IMG/VR virus record: IMGVR_UViG_3300030104_003125
Span: 1-35,150 of that record
Strand: one strand, 5' to 3'
DNA: 35,150 bases
DNA from: a virus
Below the pieces are notes generated by a model that worked only from the letters and a program-made list of their open reading frames with translations, did not search any database and was not told the origin of the DNA. Shown here piece after piece: positions 4,948 through 16,391 of this stretch; the first letter of the stretch is position 1; each line of letters starts with the position of its first letter. Both the position numbers and the translations under genes were made by a program.

Positions 4948-5213
4948 GTAGAGGCTTCGTTCAGACAATCAAGTGGCGTGTGCCAAACACTTCCAAGAAG
5001 TGGAAAGGCAAGGCCGAGACTGTCATGAGCGTAGCCGACCCCATAGGTGACGCACCTGCGCTCATCGACATCCGAGTCAGACGAACAGAAGAGCATCCCA
5101 GTGGCAAGGGCTTCACGAGAGAGGGCGTGAGGCTGAGCCAAGAGGAAGCGGCATCCTTAGTGAAAGCGATACAACATTCCCTCCAAGAACTGAGGGAAAC
5201 AGATGCCGTTTAA
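4944..5213 (+). CDS. Possible PC4-like ssDNA-binding protein (89 aa)
   Basis: An 89-residue protein. Its second half, IDIRVRRTEEHPSGKGFTRE followed by GVRLSQEEAASLVKAI, resembles the PC4 transcription coactivator pattern: a beta strand with DIR, a basic loop, then (K/R)xGVxLS and a helix. PC4-like proteins bind single-stranded DNA and occur in archaea, bacteria and phages. The N-terminal half (QTIKWRVPNTSKKW) is basic. It is coupled to both neighbours by overlaps. The family call is weak because the motif is short; a generic small DNA-binding protein is the fallback. Confidence 0.35.
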   Translation: MSRGFVQTIKWRVPNTSKKWKGKAETVMSVADPIGDAPALIDIRVRRTEEHPSGKGFTREGVRLSQEEAASLVKAIQHSLQELRETDAV

Positions 5214-5751
5214 ATGCCCTGTATGTGGTAAATACGCACCCGGTAGTCAGAGATTTTGCAGTAAACCTTGTAGCAAAAAGGTCAAGCGGATGTGCAAGCG
5301 GATAGGTTGTACAGAAACTTGGTATGCTACTGAGAAAAACTCCAAGAGATACTGTAGAGGTTGTATCCCCCAGTCGTCGTCAGGTCCCATTTACCCATAT
5401 AGAGTAAGGAAATTATGCGACCTATGCTCCGAGACATTTACCACAGAAGTGCATAGTGAAAAGCAACGGAAAAGTGAAAACACCTGTAGTGAGTGTAAGG
5501 GCTTGCTTCAATCAAGTCAATGGAAAATGTGTATCCTTATGCAAGAAAAAAACATATCATTGTATGATTTGAAGAAGATGGATAAAGTCGCTATTGATTG
5601 GCATTATGATAAATTGGAACTTTTGGAACCCAAGGTCAATTCTAAACCTTGGACTAAGACTAAGACTAAGACTAAGACTAAGACTAAGACTAAGCCTAAG
5701 CCTTTGACAAGACAAGATATACTGAAAATATGGTTCGGAGAGGAAGAGTGA
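5203..5751 (+). CDS. Multi-zinc-finger protein with (TK)n linker (182 aa)
   Basis: A 182-residue Cys-rich basic protein. Cys clusters: CPVC with CSKPC (residues 5-24), CKRIGC with CRGC (about 31-55), and CDLC with CSEC (about 72-98), so about three zinc-binding units. A Thr-Lys repeat linker (residues 151-164) follows, then a short helix LTRQDILKIWFGEEE. The linker is encoded by a perfect hexanucleotide repeat (separate entry). The start overlaps the previous gene by 11 nt; the end abuts the next ATG (TGATG). Lys-rich linkers with zinc fingers suggest nucleic acid binding. The protein is not recognised as a known family. Confidence 0.65.
   Translation: MPFKCPVCGKYAPGSQRFCSKPCSKKVKRMCKRIGCTETWYATEKNSKRYCRGCIPQSSSGPIYPYRVRKLCDLCSETFTTEVHSEKQRKSENTCSECKGLLQSSQWKMCILMQEKNISLYDLKKMDKVAIDWHYDKLELLEPKVNSKPWTKTKTKTKTKTKTKPKPLTRQDILKIWFGEEE
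5653..5694 (+). repeat. Hexanucleotide microsatellite, ACTAAG x7
   Basis: Seven perfect ACTAAG units, followed by one variant unit CCTAAG at 5695-5700. In frame they encode (TK)7 then PK. Unit changes by slippage would alter linker length by two residues without a frameshift. Confidence 0.95.
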
Positions 5752-8181: not shown

Positions 8182-8448
8182 ATGGAAACGACAATACCGA
8201 AAGAAACGAACGTCAATGATATGACACCCGAACAGCAAAGCCTGTGGGACTGCCTTAACATCTTACGTAACAATCTCTATGATTGGTTAGGAAGCGTAGA
8301 AGAATGCAAGGCGTACCATCACGAAAGATACGATGTTGGCCCACCGGGGACACACTATGACATCACAGCAGACTTGGAAGACCTTGAGTCATTTATCAAA
8401 ATCACACGAAAGCAAATGGAGAGATTCCACGAAGTAGTAAGGTGGTAA
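8182..8448 (+). CDS. Hypothetical protein (88 aa)
   Basis: An 88-residue acidic protein, three bases after the RFC stop and with AATGGAGGAATG just upstream, so it is likely co-translated. It appears mostly helical (WDCLNILRNNLYDWL and a C-terminal ITRKQMERFHEVVRW). No family was recognised. Its position between the clamp loader and the putative ssDNA-binding protein hints at a replication accessory role but does not establish one. Confidence 0.6.
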   Translation: METTIPKETNVNDMTPEQQSLWDCLNILRNNLYDWLGSVEECKAYHHERYDVGPPGTHYDITADLEDLESFIKITRKQMERFHEVVRW

Positions 8449-8480
8449 ACAAAAGGAGAAATCGAATAGGAGGAATAAAA

Positions 8481-9779
8481 ATGGAAAATGAAGGAAATGA
8501 ATGGGATAAACTTCCCACAGGTGTACAGGAAAGGCTGAGTGCCTATGCCGAAAGGCTAGGTATCAGCAAAGAGGAAGCCCTCAGTCAGTTGAAAGACTGG
8601 TTGAAGGTTGAGTTTGAGGTGGACGATGTTCACTCAGAAGACTCTTTCCTCGTGACGGAATGGACAGAGATGTTCGTTATCGAAACACGCAACCTCGGAG
8701 CATCTGGCGGAAGTCAGCGAGAGACAAGCACATACGTCGGTATGATGGTAGCCATCGAATCGAGTGCGAGAGACCAGAGAGAGAACGCGAGACAATCCGC
8801 TCTCAATCTGTTCAAGAGTAACCAAGACCGAGCAATCAGTGACCGAGTTATCGGTATTGTGACAGCAAAGGAAGGGAACTGGTGCGTCAACGGTGAGCCA
8901 ACAGGTGAGCGCGTAGACGGCAGTGAACTACCTTGGTTCGCATTTGAGCACGATGACCTCATCCTGTGCTTGTTGAACACCAACCAAGCCAGCGCAAACG
9001 TAGGAAGACCAATGGCACCGACCAGCATGGTGCGCAACATGTACTTCCTTGGCTCTGATGAGCGTTCAAGCGACATCAAAATGTGGCGTGTGGCTTTGAC
9101 CAACAACGCGATGAACACGGACTACCAGTACTACACACCGTGTAAGATTCAGGTGGTTCCACCTACCCAAGAGGGTAGAGACACACTGTACACGAACCGC
9201 AACTTCCACGAAACCGTGGAGTACACAGATTCGTTTGTACCTGACGAACTACGTGCTGAACTACGACCCGAGCGCCTCTTGTCTAACGACCAGATGCACA
9301 AGGAATACGTGGACCTCAGCGAACTTGTCGAAGCACACGGTGACCGCAAGATTCAGTTGCCCAATGGTAACACAATGAATCCAATTGTCATCACCAAGGG
9401 ATACGTGAGTCGATTGAACAAAGAGCCAATGGACTCCGAGTACGATTCGACAGGTCGCTCATTCCGCATGAGTGTCACCAGTCTAGCATTGCAGTCACGC
9501 AACGGTCGTGACAGCCCTCACTCAGAGGTTACTGTCTGGGTTCCGGGTGCATTGTATGACGACCAACATCCATTCGACTACGAGAAGAGTCCGGGTGAAT
9601 GGGTACCATACGCAGAGCGCACACAGGTTATCGTCATCGGTCGCCTCAAGTTGCGTCCTTACAACAACGACACCCTACCAAGTGTTACTGCACTGGGTGT
9701 GTTTGTACCACCACGCACGGCTCGCCCTGCGGCTACTGGTGGCAACACATCCCTCAATCAATTCGGAGGTGAACAGTGA
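8481..9779 (+). CDS. Candidate ssDNA-binding (RPA-like) protein (432 aa)
   Basis: A 432-residue protein starting at ATG 8481, which has a clear TAGGAGGAATAAAA leader; the frame is open to an ATG at 8442 but that lacks a comparable site and overlaps the previous gene. The N-terminus has a small helical domain (LPTGVQERLSAYAERLGISK) and the remainder is beta-rich, with strands such as TQVIVIGRLKLRP near the C-terminus that would suit OB folds. The tail after residue ~410 is Gly/Thr/Asn-rich and ends SLNQFGGEQ. A single-strand-binding role is inferred mainly from its place among RFC, RadA/Sak4, PCNA and PolB, all partners of an SSB, and because no other SSB is visible. No diagnostic motif seen. 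Confidence 0.4.
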   Translation: MENEGNEWDKLPTGVQERLSAYAERLGISKEEALSQLKDWLKVEFEVDDVHSEDSFLVTEWTEMFVIETRNLGASGGSQRETSTYVGMMVAIESSARDQRENARQSALNLFKSNQDRAISDRVIGIVTAKEGNWCVNGEPTGERVDGSELPWFAFEHDDLILCLLNTNQASANVGRPMAPTSMVRNMYFLGSDERSSDIKMWRVALTNNAMNTDYQYYTPCKIQVVPPTQEGRDTLYTNRNFHETVEYTDSFVPDELRAELRPERLLSNDQMHKEYVDLSELVEAHGDRKIQLPNGNTMNPIVITKGYVSRLNKEPMDSEYDSTGRSFRMSVTSLALQSRNGRDSPHSEVTVWVPGALYDDQHPFDYEKSPGEWVPYAERTQVIVIGRLKLRPYNNDTLPSVTALGVFVPPRTARPAATGGNTSLNQFGGEQ

Positions 9780-11241: not shown

Positions 11242-12003
11242 ATGACAGAATTTACAATCTCACACAGTGGCCTCAAGGACTTCTTGAGCAGTTTCGGTAA
11301 GGACCTAGCAGACTTGGTCATCGAAGCCAAGAGCGATGGCATCCACGCCTCAGTTGGTAAGGACACACACTTCATCCGCAGAAAGGTTGAGTGTGATGTC
11401 AGCCAACCGGGCAAGGTGAACATCAGTGACTTGGCCAAGGTCAAAGCGTTCATGGGCACCATGAAGAGTGGCGACCTCAAGATTACTCAATCAGGCAAGG
11501 CGAGCACCCTGCATATCGTAGGTCCATCGTCGAGCCTACAGTTACCGACATCATCTTACATTCAATCACAGGACAAGGTTGGATTGATGAGTAGACTCAT
11601 CCGTGAGGCTGAGGAAAGCATGTGGCAGAAGTGGGCAGGGTTCCCACTCAAGTACCATGCGAAAGTTACAGCCGACTCGCTGAAACCTGCAAGTAAGTTC
11701 AGCAAGGTCGTGGGTAGTAAGTTCTCATGCAAGACTGAGTTCGACCCCCAAGGTGCAGAGTTGGTGATTCGTGGAGGTTCATCGAGCAAGGGCAAGATGT
11801 TTGTGCGAGCCCCACTCGTTGACATCGATTCGCCTGACATTTCTGCACGCTCAGCATTCGACTATTGGTTACCTGAACTATTGGAGAATCTCCCCAGTGG
11901 AGAACTCGACATTCACACAAGTGACGAGTGCGTGATAGTGCTCAAGCAAGTAAGTACTGACTTCCTAATGGTGGTCATCGACCAAGAGTATGAGGAGGAT
12001 TGA
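11242..12003 (+). CDS. pcn: PCNA DNA polymerase sliding clamp
   Basis: Ring-shaped trimeric processivity clamp for PolB and other PIP-box proteins. The 253-residue product starts MTEFTISHSGLKDFLSSF, and its length matches archaeal PCNA (about 245-250). Typical features are the first-domain pattern (DLVIEAKSDGIHA) with KVNISDLAKVKAFM, and the C-terminal strand-rich end (GELDIHTSDECVIVLKQ) before an acidic tail EYEED. The interdomain connector is not obvious by eye. ATG 11242 was chosen over an upstream ATG at 11071 because the extra residues lack homology-like character and come from the structured gap. It is followed within 3 nt by the PolB gene, so clamp and polymerase are probably co-expressed. 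Confidence 0.85.
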   Translation: MTEFTISHSGLKDFLSSFGKDLADLVIEAKSDGIHASVGKDTHFIRRKVECDVSQPGKVNISDLAKVKAFMGTMKSGDLKITQSGKASTLHIVGPSSSLQLPTSSYIQSQDKVGLMSRLIREAEESMWQKWAGFPLKYHAKVTADSLKPASKFSKVVGSKFSCKTEFDPQGAELVIRGGSSSKGKMFVRAPLVDIDSPDISARSAFDYWLPELLENLPSGELDIHTSDECVIVLKQVSTDFLMVVIDQEYEED

Positions 12004-12005
12004 AC

Positions 12006-14393
12006 ATGATTATCGATGTCTTCAGACCAGACCCAGAAGGTCCCGACCACATCTACAAACGGTGGCGTGACGCTGATGGAAACCTCATCGAAGAGGTGGT
12101 CGAAGACTTCCAACCTTACTTCTGGATTAAGGCCAGCACCCCTCAGAGAATTATAGACCGTGCGCTTGCGCGGTATCCGGGCTCGTCTATCGACTGGTAT
12201 GACCGTGCTCAGGCGTTGCGGACAAATGAGGAGTTGGTCAAGGTGTATTCCTATAGAACGACGGACATCAGGGAGATGACCAAGGAATTCGGCCAAACAT
12301 GGGAGGGTGACCTCAGTTTGACAGACAGATACCTCATCGATTCTATAGAAGAGATGCCTGAGTGGAAGCCCCGAGTTTGGCACTTTGACCTTGAGTGGGA
12401 CCCAAAGAAGGATTTCACGACCGTCATGGCAGTCACAGATAGTTACAACGAAAGGAATGTAGTTTTCTGTTGGTCGGAATGGGGTAATTATGAAGCCAGA
12501 CATTTGGGAGAAGTAGACCAGAATGGTTTGGTTTCTATAGAAAATGTCGAAGTCGATAACACCGATGAAGATGGGATTCGTCACCACTTCACATACGAGC
12601 GACATTTGTACATGGATGAGGAATCTATGTACCAAGCATTCTTTGAATATCTGGAAGAATGCAACCCTGACATCTTCGTTGCACATGCGATAATGTGGGC
12701 CGACCTTCCCCACATTGTCAGGCGTTTCCCTGAGTTTAGGAGACTAAGTCCACTCGGAAGAGTGCTCAGACCACCTCAAGGGAACCGAGGATATGACTAC
12801 ACAGCACAACCGATTTGCGGTCGGCTTTGCTTCGACACAGCGGCCCCTCTGAGAAGTGGAACTGGCTTTGAGCGGGTATGGAAAGACAGTGGCCAACCCC
12901 AACTCAAGAACCTCAAATTGAACACCATCGCTGAGACTCTTGGCTATGGTGGGAAGTTTGAGATGGACGTATTCACAGGGTGGTATGACCGCTTCGATGA
13001 TTACGTCGCATACTGTATGCAGGACGTACTCCTTCTCAAGAAAATAGATGAGGAAAATCACGTTCTGAACTTCTACTTATCACTCCAACGAATCACAGGC
13101 GTTTCGTTCACATCTTGTCACAACGTGACTCGGTTTGCGCGGGGCCTCCTGTCGAGGCGCACACATTGGAAAGCACCGACTCGCTCTCAGCAAGAGAAGC
13201 AAGAGTACGAAGGTGCATTCATCCCACCACCTACGCCCGGACGATACGAAGGTGTAGCGTGTGTGGATTACAAGGGTCTGTACCCGAGCATCATCCTCAG
13301 TCACAACCTCTCATGGGAAACACGCGTGCCCAAGAGTCGAGCCAACGACGATGATGTACATGAGTTACCTGATGGCACTTGTTGGCAACAGGGTGAACCG
13401 GGCCTGCTTCCACGTATTGTGACTGAGATGTTTGACCTCCGTGATATGTACAAGAAGAAGATGAAAGAGTCCACGACAGAAACTGAGAGAAAGGGATGGA
13501 ACACCATGCAACTTGCAGTGAAGCGTGTCATGGCCTCTTTCTACGGGATGACTGCATCTGCACATTGGGGTTGGTCAGACTTTGACATCGCCAGTGCAAT
13601 CACAGCCTGCGGTCGTCGCGCTATCAAATTCCTCATGGAAGAGTCACAGGCACAGGGCTACGAGGCTCTGTACGGACACACGGATTCTGCCTTTGTCAAG
13701 GTGCCATTCGACGAAGCACCTGCGCTTGCCAAGCATCTGACCGAAGAGATTCAGCGGCGCTACCAAGAGCACGCACTCATCGTAGAGTTTGAGGCATATA
13801 TGCCCTACTGGTTGGTTGCAGGAAAGAACCTATACTATGGCATCTGCTCATGGCCACCTGAAGATGAGGGCAAGGTCAAATCTGCTCGGTTTGGTAAAAT
13901 CAGCACGCTCGCCCCCATCTCCAAGAACTTGGAGAACGACGTACTGTCAGCCGTTTGCACAGGTGCAGATGAGGATGAAGTCATTGATATGGTGCGCCCA
14001 CTCTCTAAGCGAATCGCTAGAGGCGATGTCGATATATCAGAGGTGGCAGGCACCACACGTATCCAGAAGAAACTCAATCAGTATGCTCCGAGCATAGGTG
14101 TGCCGGGCGTCAAGGGCGCACGTTACTACAACGAGCACATTGCAAAGGGTAAGTCTGAGCGCATGGGTGAGGGGGACAGTGTGAACTGGGTGTATGTCAG
14201 CGGCGTACCGGATGGCTTGCCCAAGGCAGACATCGTGGCGTACCGTGAGGAGGTAGACTTGGCTGGTTACACACTTGACTATGACACGATGGTGGACAAG
14301 TTGGTCAAGTCCAAGGTCAAGAGTATATTCAATGCACTGAATTGGAATCTAGATTTCGCAGCAGGTGCAGCACGACCGAAGAGGTATGGGTGA
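12006..14393 (+). CDS. polB: Family B DNA polymerase
   Basis: Replicative DNA polymerase with proofreading domain, 795 aa, normal for archaeal PolB and without an intein. Exo I is FDLEWD near residue 127, Exo II is degenerate (AHAIMWADLP, retaining Asp), and Exo III is YCMQD near 336-340. Motif A is DYKGLYPSII near 420, motif B is KRVMASFYG near 505, and motif C is YGHTDS at 556-561. Two positions differ from the common consensus: Ala in place of Asn in KxxxNSxYG, and His in place of the first Asp in YGDTDS; the second, metal-binding Asp (560) is kept. ATG 12006 has GAGGAGGATT upstream; a TTG at 12000 is the alternative. Acts with PCNA and RFC encoded just upstream. Confidence 0.95.
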   Translation: MIIDVFRPDPEGPDHIYKRWRDADGNLIEEVVEDFQPYFWIKASTPQRIIDRALARYPGSSIDWYDRAQALRTNEELVKVYSYRTTDIREMTKEFGQTWEGDLSLTDRYLIDSIEEMPEWKPRVWHFDLEWDPKKDFTTVMAVTDSYNERNVVFCWSEWGNYEARHLGEVDQNGLVSIENVEVDNTDEDGIRHHFTYERHLYMDEESMYQAFFEYLEECNPDIFVAHAIMWADLPHIVRRFPEFRRLSPLGRVLRPPQGNRGYDYTAQPICGRLCFDTAAPLRSGTGFERVWKDSGQPQLKNLKLNTIAETLGYGGKFEMDVFTGWYDRFDDYVAYCMQDVLLLKKIDEENHVLNFYLSLQRITGVSFTSCHNVTRFARGLLSRRTHWKAPTRSQQEKQEYEGAFIPPPTPGRYEGVACVDYKGLYPSIILSHNLSWETRVPKSRANDDDVHELPDGTCWQQGEPGLLPRIVTEMFDLRDMYKKKMKESTTETERKGWNTMQLAVKRVMASFYGMTASAHWGWSDFDIASAITACGRRAIKFLMEESQAQGYEALYGHTDSAFVKVPFDEAPALAKHLTEEIQRRYQEHALIVEFEAYMPYWLVAGKNLYYGICSWPPEDEGKVKSARFGKISTLAPISKNLENDVLSAVCTGADEDEVIDMVRPLSKRIARGDVDISEVAGTTRIQKKLNQYAPSIGVPGVKGARYYNEHIAKGKSERMGEGDSVNWVYVSGVPDGLPKADIVAYREEVDLAGYTLDYDTMVDKLVKSKVKSIFNALNWNLDFAAGAARPKRYG

Positions 14394-14397
14394 TAAT

Positions 14398-14586
14398 ATG
14401 AGTAGAGTAGAAGATGAAGTATGTAAGAAGATAAAACAACGCTCAGACGTTGGTAAACAGAAGTATGGCGTCACAATGGAGACAGCCCCACTCACACGAT
14501 TGGAGTGGCTTATCCACGCGCAAGAGGAAGCGATGGACCTAGCAGTCTATCTACAGAAACTAATTGAGATGGAGGGGAATGAATGA
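14398..14586 (+). CDS. MazG-like/phage nucleotide pyrophosphohydrolase-type small protein (62 aa)
   Basis: A 62-residue protein. The pattern GKQKYGVTME, followed by EWLIHAQEEAMDLAVYLQKL, is like a widespread class of short phage proteins related to all-alpha MazG-type NTP pyrophosphohydrolases; the EExxD element (E43, E44, D47) would bind Mg2+. Full-length enzymes have two such EExxD helices, so this one may be a minimal form or need to oligomerise. The start at 14398 lies four bases after the PolB stop; an in-frame ATG at 14365 within polB is unlikely. The end overlaps the next gene (ATGA). Possible role: control of nucleotide pools during replication. Confidence 0.6.
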   Translation: MSRVEDEVCKKIKQRSDVGKQKYGVTMETAPLTRLEWLIHAQEEAMDLAVYLQKLIEMEGNE

Positions 14587-14816
14587 AGTGGTTTGACAGA
14601 TTCAGAAAGAAGCCAGAAATATCTGAGCGCAAGCAATACTGCCAATGCGGTGGCATCAAGACTCGACAGACAACATTGGATGAATTCGACCCGAACATCT
14701 TTGTACCGGAGACTCAGAGCAAACTCACCGACTTCGACCCAGACATGATACCAGTCAACACGACTGAGCGTGTGGGCATGAAGAGTGACAAGCGAAAATA
14801 CAGGGGGAACATCTGA
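14583..14816 (+). CDS. Miniprotein with two tandem PIP-box-like motifs (77 aa)
   Basis: A 77-residue protein of unknown family. Two copies of a PCNA-interacting-peptide-like motif lie exactly 16 residues apart: QTTLDEFD (29-36) and QSKLTDFD (45-52), each followed by a similar DP(N/D)(I/M)(F/I) tail. The PIP pattern is Q-x-x-hydrophobic-x-x-aromatic-aromatic; here the seventh residue is Phe but the eighth is Asp, so the match is imperfect. The N-terminus is basic (FDRFRKK) with a CQC pair. It lies one gene after PolB and two after PCNA. I infer it may bind the viral or host clamp, as inhibitor, tether or competitor; this is not shown. Confidence 0.6.
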   Translation: MKWFDRFRKKPEISERKQYCQCGGIKTRQTTLDEFDPNIFVPETQSKLTDFDPDMIPVNTTERVGMKSDKRKYRGNI

Positions 14817-15118: not shown

Positions 15119-16116
15119 TGGCTAGGGACTTCAAGCAATACGCCAAATCCACATACCAGTGGGAACCGGGTCACGAGAAGTACCTACGCATCACCAAGTC
15201 AAGTTTGACCAGTGATTTTGATTATTGCCCGAAGTCATACGAATACAAGCGAATACACAAGTTACCGGAGTCCGGCTCTGATGCAATGACAAAGGGTACG
15301 AATGTCCACGATGCAATCGAAGACTTCTATGTCAACGTCGTTCCGTATGTCCAAAAGGCGTATGACTTGCTACAAGCCAACAAAAGGGATGAGGCCATGG
15401 AACTCTTTCAGAAGGCCCTCCCTGTACCTGAAGAGCCCTATGTGCTGGGCGAACAGGCATCGATTGATTCACGGTTGGATATGGACCTCGACCGACTACT
15501 TGGGGATGGAGTCACACGATTCCTACCCATCATCAATGAATTGGAATTACACGGATTCACTGATGAAACCATTGAGTTCAATGGTGAGACTGTCACCATC
15601 CCTGTGCACTATGCAGGTATGATTGACCGAGGATTCCGCACACCCGAAGGGTCAGTGGCCCTCATGGAGTTGAAGACAGGTAAATGGGTCAAGACCCTTA
15701 AGGGCGCTGATTGGGTCGATTCAGACTTCAAGGTCAAATCGATGCGCACTGAGATGATGTTCTACAAGAAACTGCTTGAACTGTGCGACCATGAATATCA
15801 AGATGTGACGCATTGGGGCTGGGTCTATCCATCAGGTGACCAAGTCGAAGTCCCTGCGATGAACAAGTATGGCTATGAGCAGAAGTCTGTCAATCGCATT
15901 TGGTACGAACCATGCACAGGTCGTCGTCATAACGACTATGCCAAGAAGATTCGACGCATGGTTGATGCCCTGTTCACGGCTTACTTGACAGATAACTTTG
16001 AAACCAGCGCAAGTCAAGGGAAGTGTTCATACTGTTCATTCAAGGGCATCTGCCCTGCGTGGGAAGGCAGCGATGACCCTGAAGAATATCGTAAGGCATG
16101 GGAGGCAGAAGCATGA
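15115..16116 (+). CDS. Cas4/RecB-like PD-(D/E)XK nuclease with Fe-S cysteines
   Basis: A 333-residue nuclease of the Cas4/AddB-like type. Residues visible: Cys38 in FDYCPKSYEYKR, His65 in GTNVHDAIEDF, Asp171 in GMIDRGF, and the catalytic ELKTGK at 185-190. The C-terminal cysteines C304, C307 and C313 (CSYCSFKGIC) together with Cys38 would hold a 4Fe-4S cluster. Family members resect or trim DNA ends. It is larger than CRISPR Cas4 (about 200 aa) because of an insert between residues 70 and 165. No CRISPR repeats or other cas genes are nearby, so a viral recombination or replication role is more likely. It overlaps neighbouring genes by 4 nt at both ends. Confidence 0.85.
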   Translation: MMARDFKQYAKSTYQWEPGHEKYLRITKSSLTSDFDYCPKSYEYKRIHKLPESGSDAMTKGTNVHDAIEDFYVNVVPYVQKAYDLLQANKRDEAMELFQKALPVPEEPYVLGEQASIDSRLDMDLDRLLGDGVTRFLPIINELELHGFTDETIEFNGETVTIPVHYAGMIDRGFRTPEGSVALMELKTGKWVKTLKGADWVDSDFKVKSMRTEMMFYKKLLELCDHEYQDVTHWGWVYPSGDQVEVPAMNKYGYEQKSVNRIWYEPCTGRRHNDYAKKIRRMVDALFTAYLTDNFETSASQGKCSYCSFKGICPAWEGSDDPEEYRKAWEAEA

Positions 16117-16391
16117 CGCCGAGAAAAGAACTGACACCGCGCATGGTGTCCATGATATGCGATACTTTGCTGAAACACATTGTGGGCCGTCCCGTTATCG
16201 TATCCTTTGACCATCTTGGGCAGAGCAAGGATTACTCTGTAGCCATACAGAAGAGCCTGTACGAATATGCCCCTGACATGGAATCAGGCGAAGAAGGCCC
16301 CATGTACATCACACTGAACCGCCGCCTTTTCCAAGACACAGAGGAATTGCTGAGAGTTCTGAATGAAATTGTTGAGAAATACCGAATTTGA
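16113..16391 (+). CDS. Hypothetical protein (92 aa)
   Basis: A 92-residue protein starting at ATG 16113, which overlaps the nuclease stop (ATGA) and has GGGAGGCAGAAGC upstream; an earlier ATG at 16098 is possible. It seems to be mixed alpha/beta, with an N-terminal helix (MVSMICDTLLKHIVGRPVIV) and a C-terminal helix (TEELLRVLNEIVEKYRI). No conserved catalytic motif or metal site was recognised. It is placed between the Cas4-like nuclease and the primase. Confidence 0.6.
   Translation: MTPRKELTPRMVSMICDTLLKHIVGRPVIVSFDHLGQSKDYSVAIQKSLYEYAPDMESGEEGPMYITLNRRLFQDTEELLRVLNEIVEKYRI

Follow-up and report, generated by a model that had tools for sequence, protein, structure and literature searches.

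A conserved viral miniprotein with two PIP-like motifs encoded in the clamp and polymerase cluster of a putative magrovirus

The Thermococcales inhibitor of PCNA (TIP), at 64 aa, resembles the viral miniprotein considered here in being tiny and archaeal, and an N-terminal PIP motif has been proposed for it (PMC4929162). Compared by description, however, TIP is cellular, has no more than one PIP motif alongside a putative partial PH-like domain, and neither a tandem motif nor a Cys knuckle has been described for it. The DP2 subunit of PolD also has two PIP boxes (iPIP and cPIP) per chain acting on PCNA (PMC7101311), although these belong to a large polymerase, rather than to a separate miniprotein. 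In the Hafunaviridae (HRTV-10, HF1, and HRTV-25), a PIP-like QTGLxxF motif is found on or near the viral polymerase, and the gp43 protein of HRTV-25 combines a Cys pair with a PIP motif, but the halovirus PolB tails and gp43 have a single motif, which is located at the extreme C-terminus.

The window analyzed here comprises 35,150 nucleotides (positions 1 to 35,150 of the IMG/VR record IMGVR_UViG_3300030104_003125), and the virus appears to be a magrovirus, a label that is based on gene content (in comparison with PMC10768690) and the IMG/VR relatives, rather than on phylogenetic placement or matching to a host. The miniprotein has two motifs, and the first-pass annotation knew of no described viral protein of this design; a literature search likewise recovered no description of the miniprotein, nor any described relative. 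The combination of a conserved tandem-PIP miniprotein and a second PIP-bearing small protein indicates where the wiring of the replisome should be sought, and the cultured haloviruses offer a possible analogue, open to genetic testing. These marine archaeal viruses carry the genes for most of a replisome, and, to our knowledge, no member of the group has been cultured.

The miniprotein gene and its two motifs

The miniprotein gene (14583–14816, plus strand) encodes 77 aa (MKWFDRFRKKPEISERKQYCQCGGIKTRQTTLDEFDPNIFVPETQSKLTDFDPDMIPVNTTERVGMKSDKRKYRGNI), and overlaps its upstream neighbor through ATGA and its downstream neighbor through TGATG, with a Shine-Dalgarno-like GGAGGGG (14571–14577) located 5 nt upstream of its ATG. 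In comparisons with its relatives, dN/dS is 0.05–0.16, and the miniprotein is therefore under purifying selection. Judging from the ATGA overlap, the Shine-Dalgarno sequence, and these dN/dS values, the ORF is a real gene, exactly as first described, with QTTLDEFD and QSKLTDFD placed 16 residues apart.

No family was found for the miniprotein in Pfam or PHROGs, no relative of either the miniprotein or the PolB of the window was recovered from the GTDB genomes, and tblastn, run on the named phage records, including those of the haloviruses, detected no protein related to it in sequence. The PDB sequence search retrieved nothing beyond a chance match to SUMO (E 0.59). The family was recovered from the viral contigs, which were scanned with the protein, next with branch alignments, and then with an iterated profile run over all the ORFs of the loci, with separate scans for each branch, because the alignment of the whole family was too divergent to serve as a query. 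The search recovered 71 places, many of them duplicates of the same contig, at which 34 distinct proteins are encoded.

These proteins form two branches, one of 56–63 aa (MSKW.FW..CPTCGR..RQAKLFEFAEMEQKTLEVYA), and the other of 58–78 aa, in which the C-terminus is mostly RKYRG(N/M/S)(I/L), and the branches are bridged by members such as that of locus L096, which have the N-terminus of the former and the C-terminus of the latter. Residues W3, C22, G23, Q29, L32, and Q45 are invariant in the 31 aligned miniproteins. The N-terminal basic and aromatic segment MKWFDRFRKK (14583–14612), with its invariant W, is aligned with MSKWKFWKK in the relatives, and is followed by a Cys knuckle, CQCGG (14640–14654), which corresponds to CPTCGR or CCNCGG in the relatives, and reads as one half of a zinc site only. 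The C-terminal module TERVGMKSDKRKYRGNI (14763–14813) is kept in one branch, and is missing from the 56–63 aa branch.

The AlphaFold2 model of the miniprotein (pLDDT 65, pTM 0.22) has no confident fold, which suggests a disordered protein, with the motifs lying in a flexible segment. Short helical turns at residues 32–34 and 48–50 fall within the two motifs, as expected for linear motifs.

Motif 1 (QTTLDEFD; 14667–14690, Q29 to D36) is a PIP box, and motif 2 (QSKLTDFD; 14715–14738, Q45 to D52) is a weaker PIP-like motif. Over 19 clusters, motif 1 invariably retains the Q, the L, and an aromatic residue (19/19 for each; F in 15, W in three, and Y in one), whereas motif 2 retains the Q and an L or I in all 19 (L in 15, I in four), but has the aromatic residue in only 13, having lost it in six, so that the Q x x [LIM] x x aromatic core is found in 19/19 clusters for motif 1 and 13/19 for motif 2. 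The codons of the Q and L of the motifs vary synonymously, and the exchanges observed, among F, W, and Y or between L and I, are within the tolerance of a PIP box. Canonical forms of motif 1 (QTTLDEFF, QTKLNEFF, and QSTLDEFF) are found in the relatives, with FF at positions 7 and 8 in eight of the 19 clusters, and motif 1 is close to the archaeal consensus peptide KTTQSTLDSFFK of the structure 1RXM (PMC4929162). The Asp found in the window at position 8, where a second aromatic residue would be expected, had been seen as a weakness of the match, although this is probably not a serious objection, given that the position is F, Y, A, M, V, T, or D across the relatives (in motif 1, F in eight of the 19 clusters and Y in one), and the RNase H of A. 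fulgidus binds PCNA without the second aromatic residue, with an Arg before the box thought to compensate (PMC3504372). The residue preceding the Q in the miniproteins is R, or, in a single case, H.

The alignment of the homologues upholds the residues on which the original proposal was based, but not the interval of 16 residues between the motifs, given that the Q-to-Q spacing is 14 in eight clusters, 11 in six, and 16 in five, with a spacing of 11 leaving a linker of only three residues. Shuffling the miniprotein sequence produces two Q..h..aromatic cores in 0.15% of cases, a figure that becomes 0.47% when the rate at which the core follows a Q in the long ORFs of the related loci is used instead. 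This rarity is not decisive alone, but the motifs are also kept across the family.

The clamp, the polymerase, and the neighboring genes

The presumed partner of the miniprotein is encoded at 11242–12003 (plus strand). No match was found for this protein in Pfam, the PDB sequence search, or the PDB profiles, and only one of its 31 relatives touches DNA_pol3_beta in Pfam. Its AlphaFold2 model, by contrast, has a pLDDT of 93.4, and its best structural matches are archaeal PCNAs (E down to 9e-13, TM about 0.7). A match of the fold without a match of the sequence identifies this protein as a very divergent sliding clamp of the PCNA fold, and the model has an unusual long helix (113–125) in the interdomain connector.

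The family B DNA polymerase (12000–14393, plus strand) ends in ARPKRYG, without a PIP tail, and the polymerases of this virus group end in PK(R/K/Q)YW or similar, also without a PIP tail. In the five records inspected for the nearest named relatives, the PolBs of haloviruses, the polymerase has a tail of either QTGLAAFC or QTGLGAFV. Within the PolB of the window, QKKLNQYA (Q..L..Y) was considered as a PIP motif and rejected, being, by inspection, part of the conserved core of the polymerase.

Wherever flanks are present, the miniprotein gene sits in the operon-like cluster of clamp, PolB, and nuclease, often straight after PolB, while in the window it follows the gene of a 62-aa protein (14398–14586, plus strand), which is MazG-like by eye only, has no match in Pfam, and corresponds to PHROGs of unknown function. 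In locus L119, the miniprotein gene is found immediately upstream of the clamp gene, and overlaps its start. The miniprotein gene was not detected in 19 related virus records of 43–109 kb, in which a PIP tail is likewise absent from those PolBs that were inspected; the miniprotein is thus not the only route of the polymerase to the clamp.

In five loci (L057, L017, L067, L051, and L061), the gene after PolB has a C-terminal PIP-like motif of its own (QTTLDEFF, QTTLDEFG, QTRLDDFT, or QTRLDEYE), and a separate miniprotein was not found there; the genes of L057, L017, and L067 are homologues of the 62-aa neighbor. In the haloviruses, gp43 of HRTV-25 (L142, 7599–7730), a 43-aa Cys protein encoded downstream of PolB, has a C-terminal QTGLGDFV, and has a homologue in gp40 of HRTV-27 (L143, 2965–3132), the two proteins ending in QTGLGDF(V/A). 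The PolB tails and these small proteins suggest that clamp binding may have been shifted from the polymerase onto separate small proteins, although the 19 records in which no miniprotein was detected count against a strict version of this idea.

The proposed role of the miniprotein

The miniprotein very probably serves the viral replication machinery as a small accessory. The proposal that it presents clamp-binding peptides, encoded beside PCNA and PolB, is strongly supported by the conserved Q, L, and aromatic residues, the canonical forms of the relatives, the constant linkage to the cluster, and the fold predicted with high confidence for the clamp. The reading preferred here, with a probability of roughly 0.6, is that of a disordered clamp-binding adaptor or competitor in the viral replisome, with motif 1 as the main PIP box and motif 2 as an auxiliary. 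Motif 1 would dock the miniprotein on the virus's own sliding clamp, a binding that we infer, as we do the second partner and the direction of the effect, while motif 2 would be an auxiliary clamp-binding peptide, probably alternating with motif 1 or raising local rebinding. The N-terminal KW.FW and the Cys knuckle, together with the RKYRG(N/M)I module in one branch, would engage a further partner. The likeliest candidate is PolB, whose gene lies beside that of the miniprotein and which lacks the PIP tail of the related halovirus polymerases. The outcome would be either an adaptor, or a competitor that regulates which enzymes occupy the clamp.

The absence from the PolBs of this group of the C-terminal PIP motif kept by their halovirus relatives, and the presence of a small protein encoded adjacent to them, also lead to a more tentative reading, on the unlikely side of an even chance, in which the miniprotein would be the detached clamp-binding tail of PolB, acting in trans, with the N-terminal and Cys-knuckle segment bound to the polymerase and the PIP boxes to the clamp. 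A role as a clamp inhibitor, which would fill the pockets of the clamp and block other PIP proteins, as TIP does, is rather doubtful. The size and PIP motif of the miniprotein are like those proposed for TIP (PMC4929162), the clamp model also matches the structure of a PCNA in complex with a small inhibitory protein (5da7), and the distribution of the miniprotein, not found in the 19 related records, is that of an accessory, but the conserved KW.FW, Cys knuckle, and RKYRGNI exceed the needs of a pure blocker, and a reason of timing would be needed for a virus to block its own clamp. The sequestration of the PCNA of the archaeal host, sparing the viral clamp, would be consistent with a motif that matches the general archaeal PIP consensus, and with the marked divergence of the viral clamp, from which it follows that the two clamps could be distinguished; this decoy function is nonetheless improbable, given that the miniprotein is always encoded inside the viral clamp-polymerase cluster, and that another small protein of this cluster keeps the same motif.

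The suggestion that both motifs of a single chain occupy two sites of the PCNA trimer simultaneously is not supported, and is considered to be very unlikely, even though every member of the family has two motifs, at least as Q..(L/I). The spacing is 11, 14, or 16, the aromatic residue of motif 2 has been lost in several lineages, and a register of 11 residues would span at most about 40 Å when extended (our estimate, at 3.6 Å per residue), in comparison with roughly 50–60 Å from pocket to pocket (our estimate, from the geometry of the ring). In the PolD-PCNA complex, the binding of one PIP of a chain was judged to exclude that of the other, and a linker of 40 residues was considered hardly long enough to span the 70 Å to the next free pocket (PMC7101311). 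It is this precedent, together with the three-residue linkers of one branch, that makes the occupation of two pockets unlikely. There is an equally slim chance that the Q..L..F motifs are fortuitous, or serve another partner, such as the primase or an RPA-like protein, rather than the clamp: the cPIP of PolD binds PCNA and primase alike (PMC7101311), and the probability of two chance motifs in a single protein (0.15%) is small but not negligible, while the conservation across the family and the canonical FF forms argue against this explanation.

Other PIP-like motifs in the window

A 97-aa protein of the window (16098–16391, plus strand), with QKSLYEYA here and QTTLDEFF in its relatives, belongs to a second family with a PIP motif, encoded between the nuclease and the primase, with homologues in about 107 loci. 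All 58 distinct sequences of this family have an internal motif with Q, L or I, and an aromatic residue, ranging from QTTLDEFF to QTSLYEFD; these ORFs were chosen by synteny and length, with preference given to the motif pattern. Every locus that had an ORF at the nuclease-primase position also had the motif. In 28 of the 135 loci there was no such ORF, although three of these (L041, L088, and L089) do have one, just beyond the limits of the search. On the basis of its motif, this family is a second candidate clamp binder.

A 182-aa protein with Cys motifs (5203–5751) has the C-terminus RQDILKIWFGEEE, a canonical-looking PIP box. The protein encoded at 8442–9779, called RPA-like without a family match, has homologues that nearly all end in G(D/N/S)Tx(L/I/V)xQF, a PIP-like sequence minus the Q.
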